Positions 1,510 to 3,806 of a stretch of DNA of 31,163 nucleotides are shown here, in pieces. The stretch is from positions 1 through 31,163 of the IMG/VR virus record IMGVR_UViG_3300032316_000335; one strand, 5' to 3'. Under the pieces are notes generated by a model that was not told where the DNA came from, made no database searches, and saw only the letters and a list, made by a program, of their open reading frames with translations. A program made the position numbers and the translations under genes. The first letter of the stretch is position 1, and every line of letters begins with the position of its first letter. This DNA comes from a virus.

Positions 1510-1608
1510 TCAAAAACCGCCAAAAACACGCCAAAACAGGGTCAAAGTGACCCGAAAATGCCCCGAAAACACCCCGAAAAAGGCTCTCGATGCCTATCAA
1601 AACAGGGT
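1507..1608 (+). repeat. 11-bp iterated array with phased A-tracts (bent DNA)
   Basis: Seven A-runs of 3-5 bases begin at 1512, 1522, 1533, 1544, 1555, 1566 and 1577, intervals of 10 then 11 bp throughout. An eighth lies two periods on, at 1599. The units read roughly C-G/C-C/T-C/G-AAAA; CCCGAAAA recurs at 1551, 1562 and 1573, and CGCCAAAA at 1518 and 1529. CAAAACAGGGT repeats at 1532 and 1598, 66 bp apart (six periods). A-tracts in helical phase are the classic cause of intrinsic curvature. The array lies in the divergent region upstream of the rightward genes, so it may be an origin, an UP-like element or a protein-binding array. Confidence 0.7.
1539..1553. repeat. GGGTCA/TGACCC hairpin repeat, copy 1
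   Basis: GGGTCAAAGTGACCC is the first of five inverted repeats with the form GGGTCA-N3-TGACCC between 1.5 and 4.5 kb. This copy lies inside the phased A-tract array and is followed by GAAAATG, like copies 3 and 4, which are followed by GAAA. Confidence 0.6.
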
Positions 1609-2562: not shown

Positions 2563-2742
2563 ATGTCCAAATTCAAACACTACTCACCCAAAGAAGTCGC
2601 CCTCGCTAAGTGGAACAACGAGCAACGCCCCAAATACATGGAGAAGATCGAGCGTGATGTGAAGCGCACCTTCATGCTCAGGCGTGTCGAAGACATGGAA
2701 GCACGAGCCGAAATTCGGGTCATTGTGACCCGAAAATCTTGA
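2563..2742 (+). CDS. Small basic protein, 59 aa, with hairpin repeat inside its 3' end
   Basis: The ATG at 2563 lies 6 bases after AAGGAG (2551-2556). The product is basic and helical (KYMEKIERDVKRTFMLRRVEDMEARAE). The last residues, RVIVTR, are encoded by hairpin copy 3 (2716-2732), so the repeat appears to have been captured as coding sequence. The stop codon at 2740-2742 lies within the left copy of the direct repeat that brackets the palindromic element. No known family recognised. Confidence 0.65.
   Translation: MSKFKHYSPKEVALAKWNNEQRPKYMEKIERDVKRTFMLRRVEDMEARAEIRVIVTRKS
2716..2732. repeat. GGGTCA/TGACCC hairpin repeat, copy 3
   Basis: CGGGTCATTGTGACCCG extends by two more base pairs on each side (TT outside, AA outside), giving 9-bp arms. 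It lies within the last codons of the 59-aa gene and is followed by AATC rather than a T-run, so it is not an obvious terminator in the plus direction. The minus strand reads out into TTTCGGGT. Confidence 0.6.
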
Positions 2743-3087
2743 AAGGCGAAAATCATACCGAAAAACTACATATCCATATTTTCGCAACTATCTGCACGAT
2801 CAGACATCCGCAAACCCGCGCCAATACTGGCGTCCTTGAAAAACTGTCCATCTATCTATCTTTTTAAATATATATTTATATATAGGAGTGTGTCTGTATG
2901 TGTGCGTATATTTTCACAAGCCCGACCAACCCTGCAAACCTTGTAGAGTTAAAGCATTTCTCAAAACAGATAGATAGCTGGACACTTTTTCGTGTACACT
3001 AGCATACATGCGGTCTCCCGACTGTCCAATCGTGCAGATAGTTGCGAAAATTCACTGATACCTCCGACCCTAGAAAGCGAAAATCAT
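2738..3087. repeat. Interrupted 274-bp palindrome flanked by direct repeats
   Basis: Outer arms 2778-2800 and 3029-3051 are a perfect 23-bp inverted repeat. Inner arms 2839-2865 and 2964-2990 match at 24 of 27 positions. Both pairs share one dyad axis (coordinates sum to 5829), and the 37-bp segments between them still match at about half of positions, so this was one long palindrome. The 98-base centre begins with an AT-rich run (2864-2885). Near-identical direct repeats bracket it: 2738-2756 and 3070-3087, with one mismatch and one extra base. GATACCTCC also repeats at 3057 and 3089, the latter overlapping the next start codon. It could be a miniature inverted-repeat element, an origin or a structured RNA. 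This stretch otherwise holds only a doubtful 34-codon frame. Confidence 0.75.
2898..3002 (+). CDS. Possible 34-aa peptide encoded in the palindrome loop
   Basis: An ATG at 2898 follows ATAGGAG (2882-2888) by 9 bases and opens a frame to TAG 3000-3002. The peptide starts MCAYIFTSPTNPANLVELKH and ends in residues encoded by the inner right arm. The ribosome binding site is the only support. The coding potential of so short a frame cannot be judged by eye. Confidence 0.25.
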   Translation: MCAYIFTSPTNPANLVELKHFSKQIDSWTLFRVH

Positions 3088-3802
3088 GGATACCTCCTAC
3101 AAACACTACATAAAACTGACCCCAAACCAACTTCACAACCGCTTGATCGAACGCAAAACCCCACCGATGCAAGCCGAGCACATCAAGAAAACAGTCGCAG
3201 AACAACAAGCCATGCTCAAGTCAGAGAACGCAAGAACGATTCAACTCACGCGTCTTTGGCGTGAGTTCACTGAGCCGTTAAATACAGAGCGCGAAAATGT
3301 GCAGGGTATGTTGCGATACAAAGGTTGCGAAAATGATGAGGCGAGGCGCGATGCGCTCGAAGCGTACCTGACTGTTTTAAACTCCCTCAAAGCCCGCATG
3401 CAAAACCACTGCAAGCAAGATCGAAAGACACCCACAATGATCGCATCCGAAAAAGACTTGCCCAATGATGGTACGCATTGGACTGATTGGATACCGCAGA
3501 AGATAAAGGATAGGGTCATCACGCTATTCGAGCAGATCGAACGTAAGCCAAAGGCGAAAATCAAAATCCCATTCCAACGCCTTATCCCTGCTGACCTACA
3601 CGCCAAGCAAGTTACGCGGTTGAAGAACCGCACACTAAAAGACTTAGCCATGGCTGAGCAAGCGCAAGAGCTTGACCCTCATGAGGACAACGAAGCCAAG
3701 GTCAACCAAATTAAATACTCCCTCGAACTGATGGATGTACTAGATGACAGCGAGCCTGTGCCTGCAACGTGGCATGGGCTGAACAGAAACGGGTCACAGT
3801 GA
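3086..3802 (+). CDS. Hypothetical protein, 238 aa
   Basis: The frame starts at ATG 3086, which lies in the right copy of the direct repeat flanking the palindrome, and has no good ribosome binding site. Translation may be weak or depend on leader structure. The product is strongly helical and charged. Residues 25-120 look like coiled coil (IKKTVAEQQAMLKSENARTIQ onward), followed by a basic region (KPKAKIKIPFQRLIP) and an acidic C-terminal helix. Only two Cys are seen, far apart, so there is no zinc site. No family recognised. Its stop codon is inside hairpin copy 4. Confidence 0.75.
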   Translation: MDTSYKHYIKLTPNQLHNRLIERKTPPMQAEHIKKTVAEQQAMLKSENARTIQLTRLWREFTEPLNTERENVQGMLRYKGCENDEARRDALEAYLTVLNSLKARMQNHCKQDRKTPTMIASEKDLPNDGTHWTDWIPQKIKDRVITLFEQIERKPKAKIKIPFQRLIPADLHAKQVTRLKNRTLKDLAMAEQAQELDPHEDNEAKVNQIKYSLELMDVLDDSEPVPATWHGLNRNGSQ

Positions 3803-3806
3803 CCCG
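3790..3806. repeat. GGGTCA/TGACCC hairpin repeat, copy 4
   Basis: CGGGTCACAGTGACCCG overlaps the 3' end and TGA stop (3800-3802) of the 238-aa gene and is followed by AAAGTG. Its stem is identical to copy 5. Confidence 0.65.

Follow-up and report, generated by a model that had tools for sequence, protein, structure and literature searches.

Analysis of a record of an uncultured phage, the whole 31,163 bases of which are referred to here as the window, reveals a dyad-symmetric element of about 270 bases that is probably the replication origin of a phage family, or the core of that origin. We favor this reading from sequence comparison because short boxes at fixed positions, a candidate DNA-unwinding element, a nearby skew minimum and a conserved place in the genome fit together. 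The features are listed in Table 1.

Table 1. Features of the element and of the adjacent gene (positions in the window; distances are from the dyad axis)
Feature	Positions	Strand	Basis or remark
Whole dyad-symmetric element, ~270-base palindrome	2771–3060	none	Self-complementarity scan and alignment, 31 non-redundant relatives
Outer left box, TATCC (TGTCC variant), ~142 bp	2771–2775	+	Coincides with TGTCC at -143 in other clades
Left arm, perfect 23-bp inverted repeat	2778–2800	+	
Middle left box, AGACA (inverted TGTCT), ~110 bp	2802–2806	-	
A+T-rich DNA-unwinding-element candidate; AT-only core 2861–2884	2835–2884	none	Nearest-neighbour stability scan
Inner left box, TGTCC, ~67 bp	2845–2849	+	
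Inner right box, GGACA, ~67 bp	2980–2984	-	
Middle right box, TGTCC, ~110 bp	3023–3027	+	
Right arm, perfect 23-bp inverted repeat	3029–3051	-	
Outer right box position, TGATA here, GGATA/GGACA in relatives, ~143 bp	3056–3060	-	
Conserved basic all-helical protein, 238 residues, possible partner of the element	3086–3802	+	Relatives, AlphaFold2

The palindrome and its place in the genome

The element is organized around one dyad axis at 2914.5, with approximately 135 bp on each side related by symmetry. The 23-bp arms are perfectly inverted about this common axis and the longer ungapped arms (2778–2865 and 2964–3051, 88 nucleotides each) are 76% complementary. Gapped self-alignment of the region (about 2778–3051) gives a score of 77, compared with a mean of 13 for 500-bp segments of the same genome and a best value of 21 elsewhere. 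Relative to shuffled sequences the fold z-scores are -7.95 and -7.60 for RNA of the plus and the minus strand, and -7.99 for DNA; the plus-strand RNA, the folding of which had been proposed as a check, is thus very stable. With perfect 23-bp arms, this score and fold z-values near -8, the long interrupted palindrome on one axis described in the original prediction is confirmed. Two further repeats were observed in the vicinity. The word GCGAAAAT occurs four times, once inverted, at the approximate positions 2745–2752, 2778–2785, 3043–3050 and 3077–3084, and in the window's clade its copies form a pair on either side of the axis, with a spacing of about 33 bp. Near-identical GGGTCA...TGACCC hairpins, probably a repeated type of terminator, lie between genes at 2071–2089, 2715–2733, 3790–3806 (minus strand) and 1539–1553 (minus strand), one of them abutting the left edge of the element.

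The distribution of the element was analyzed from 25 loci found by a search with the next gene and from a profile search that yielded 189 matching stretches, the best 80 of which were listed and examined. A counterpart is present in the upstream regions inspected, at the same place beside the gene of the ~238-residue protein, which lies directly downstream in the relatives examined; in many members the right arm of the element ends at the Shine-Dalgarno sequence and start codon of this gene. Of 37 non-redundant members (less than approximately 90% identity), 31 reach a dyad score of at least 30. Together with the constant location, this indicates that the element is orthologous and old and not inserted. 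The palindrome is mostly gone in a few members (L059, L062, L066, L087, and L035), and since some lineages retain the A+T block with little of the dyad, the latter may contribute without being indispensable, or may be a by-product. In two loci (L016 and L039, approximately 1–235) the contig IMGVR_UViG_3300003493_000004 ends inside the palindrome, probably at an assembly break. A BLAST search of the INPHARED database with the element gave no match, and no description of it was found in a literature search that covered few subscription journals.

The original prediction had offered two readings, a structured origin or RNA on the one hand and, on the other, a miniature inverted-repeat element, the palindrome being bracketed by direct repeats. 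A transposable element of this kind with target-site duplications could invoke the inverted arms and the flanking repeats of the window's record alone, and we regard it as extremely improbable. The repeats (2738–2756 and 3069–3087) are identical at 15 of 19 positions, a similarity due in part to the likeness of both to a Shine-Dalgarno/start context, of which a third copy is found at 2551–2564; they are not conserved in the relatives examined and therefore do not bracket an insertion. The element is present in a single copy in the window's record and at one orthologous position, always beside the same gene, in every relative examined. The variable sites, empty sites or multiple copies that characterize miniature inverted-repeat elements were not found; in particular, no site with a single copy of the flanking repeat and lacking the element was seen among the relatives examined, and the transposon reading therefore fails.

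The window encodes a family A DNA polymerase (PolA), an SNF2-type helicase and a protein of the DUF927 type, whose relatives include primases/helicases. PolA, an SNF2 helicase and a DUF927 primase are likewise found in the ~60-kb genomes of its relatives. The larger relatives, 57–63 kb in length, consist of one block of minus-strand genes and one block of plus-strand genes, which in the genome-scale records diverge approximately 1–3 kb before the element. The 238-residue protein encoded immediately downstream of the element has a pI of 9.1–10 in relatives, and AlphaFold2 yields an all-helical model with a mean pLDDT of 90. Structural comparison with BFVD retrieved two uncultured-phage proteins of unknown function; comparison with PDB structures gave no convincing match and no recognized DNA-binding fold, and searches of INPHARED (tblastn) and of GTDB genomes returned no homolog. 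The protein carries a conserved HWTDWIPQ-like motif and its PHROG match is weak only. To designate it as the initiator would be a guess.

Covariation between the arms

Compensatory change, which the original prediction had suggested looking for, is abundant. In an alignment of 31 sequences comprising 154 pairs, 103 pairs have changed on both sides, corresponding to 484 cells compared with 174–239 when the partners are slid. The covariation score is 0.224 (0.06–0.10 for slid partners), and 65% of the cells are paired, compared with 34–42% in the slid controls, a percentage inflated by the derivation of the structure string from the same sequences and by the selection of members for the dyad, which affect the counts of double changes less. 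At 118–150 bp from the axis the left arms are only 34–35% identical between members, whereas the complementarity of each to its own right arm amounts to 57–62%, for a slid control of 22–24%.

Such covariation, the very stable fold of either strand and the position of the right arm at the start of the 238-residue gene would all suit a structured non-coding RNA or a long 5' leader of this gene, the hairpin acting as RNA. A selected RNA should, however, tolerate G-U over A-C mismatches, an A-C being the G-U of the other strand, and no such strand-specific tolerance is seen in the stems. One-sided changes in well-paired columns are balanced at the strict threshold (34 G-T vs. 38 A-C), and 23 G-T vs. 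30 A-C are counted within clades. At looser thresholds A-C changes prevail (102 vs. 71 G-T), an excess that argues against a plus-strand RNA and makes at most a weak case for a minus-strand one. Moreover, no Rfam family reaches the gathering score (weak matches to microRNA models, E 0.09–0.7, fall far below the cut-off), promoter-like matches in the region are about as frequent as expected by chance (3 vs. 2.7), and an RNA leaves both the fixed spacing of the boxes and the DNA melting minimum, described below, unexplained. We therefore consider a functional RNA quite improbable. Two other features of the region were considered. The reading frame of a short ORF inside the element is, on inspection, not kept in relatives. 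As to a T7/SP6-like start motif (TATAGGAG), a search for a T7-like polymerase with the phage single-subunit RNA polymerase family PF00940 gave no match in seven, possibly incomplete, records, but its controls were silent too.

Within the window's clade, a block of the right arm in L042, L047, L050, and L054 matches the left arm of the same sequences, while the window and L051 differ there. Block changes that copy the other arm fit template switching by a polymerase, a process documented as creating and repairing stems in blocks (PMC8794818). Given these blocks and the lack of an RNA-like G-U bias on either strand, the pairing appears to act, or to be maintained, at the DNA level, and the case for the proposed RNA that kept its stems is weak, the abundant compensatory changes notwithstanding. 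The same copying raises the question of whether the dyad has a role of its own: a quasi-palindrome could be repeatedly re-perfected by template switching, the boxes and the A+T block being functional and the hairpin not. This explanation, which is compatible with an origin, accounts for the copied block and for the members that retain the A+T block without most of the dyad; on the other hand, conservation of the dyad in 31 of the 37 non-redundant members over a large divergence suggests that it is not free to decay. We hold a by-product to be a serious possibility, if the weaker one. The 37 distinct versions of one quasi-palindrome constitute a natural series for separating arm-to-arm copying from selection for pairing.

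Conserved boxes and the A+T block

In divergent clades, TGTCC-type words occur on both sides at discrete distances from the axis, approximately 67, 110, and 143 bp, with alternating orientation. Because further words (TGTCT, CGTCC, TGGCC) were admitted once the sequences had been inspected, the histogram of positions is descriptive and carries no formal test. As five-base words are not rare (boxes occur about 1.5 times per kb, and a single genome may contain a denser cluster than the element), the evidence resides in their fixed position within diverged flanks and not in their number. In the clade of L072, L086, and L111 the corresponding positions show, by eye, TGGC/GCCA, which suggests a joint change of the recognition word. 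Repeated short words at conserved spacing are what is expected of initiator sites, and the boxes are putative sites of this kind.

According to the nearest-neighbour scan, duplex stability in the window is lowest over the 50 bp of the A+T block (z 5.0). Indeed, the least stable 50 bp fall inside the element in all seven genomes analyzed, that is the window and six large relatives (z 4.5–6.5), so that each of them has here the A+T segment of lowest duplex stability that characterizes origins. In the genome-scale records the cumulative GC-skew minimum lies within approximately 1–3 kb of the element, a coincidence in which gene orientation is a confounder, since the divergence of minus- and plus-strand genes is itself 1–3 kb away; averaging at a finer scale places the minimum in the plus block, about 0.3–1 kb downstream of the axis. 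Distant relatives of the DUF927 protein are also encoded by cultured phages, among them Rollin and RHph_TM3_14A. These two distant phages, which have related replication genes, likewise carry their least stable DNA close to the skew minimum in a non-coding gap, without a dyad. A strong palindrome in Pseudomonas phage Rollin (OR577172.1; L136–L137) proved to be an artifact of a run of N near 990–1090. In the same record no genes are annotated over about 10 kb (51.8 kb round to 1.4 kb), although this stretch contains open frames.

Boxes arranged in a dyad could bind any regulator, and the plus-strand gene block begins near the element; a double-stranded DNA site of another kind, such as an operator/promoter array of early genes, a partition site or a packaging start, was therefore considered. 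Such a site seems unlikely: the chance level of promoter-like matches speaks against it, and a regulator would account neither for the skew minimum nor for a melting minimum that is the lowest of the genome in all seven genomes analyzed.

A candidate origin compared with known origins

An origin accommodates the single genomic position, the fixed boxes and the location of the least stable DNA, and it is this half of the alternative between structured origin and mobile element that is supported. It is well established for oriC, lambda and iteron plasmids that an A+T block next to the initiator repeats is opened (PMC5043065). A phage initiator would bind the boxes on both sides and bend or wrap the DNA, and its binding would open the A+T block. 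The separated strands could then each fold back into a long imperfect hairpin, and the DUF927-type primase-helicase and the PolA polymerase would start divergent forks. Exposed single strands make arm-to-arm template switching plausible, and such block copying would maintain the complementarity of the arms at least in part. Only a minority of uncultured phages have a known origin; in this family, represented by at least 189 matching contigs, the sequence by itself marks the element, and a candidate marked in this way makes initiation directly testable.

The oriL of herpes simplex virus is palindromic. More tentatively, we propose that this tailed-phage origin is built as one long dyad in which the boxes keep their positions and the intervening sequence is replaced almost completely, yet remains self-complementary through arm copying coupled to initiation; it could then be an independent counterpart of the palindromic herpesvirus origins, although we would not give this even chances. 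The likeness to oriS (layout in PMC12543377) and oriL concerns the layout only and not membership: inverted initiator boxes surround an A+T-rich spacer, and the unwound strand is able to form a hairpin. The phage element differs in the sequence of its boxes, in its longer and imperfect arms, in belonging to a bacterial virus and in having no identified UL9-like initiator. With the phage lambda origin it shares inverted-repeat initiator sites beside an A+T block (approximately 40 bp in lambda and opened on binding; PMC5043065), whereas the lambda iterons are tandem and lie inside the O gene and the six box positions described here are mirrored over approximately 290 bp between genes. A viral non-coding DNA described previously (PMC3989284) belongs to different viruses, measures about 155 bp and contains three small dyads instead of one long one; like the present element, it combines clusters at strictly conserved positions with dyad symmetry and a high A+T content.
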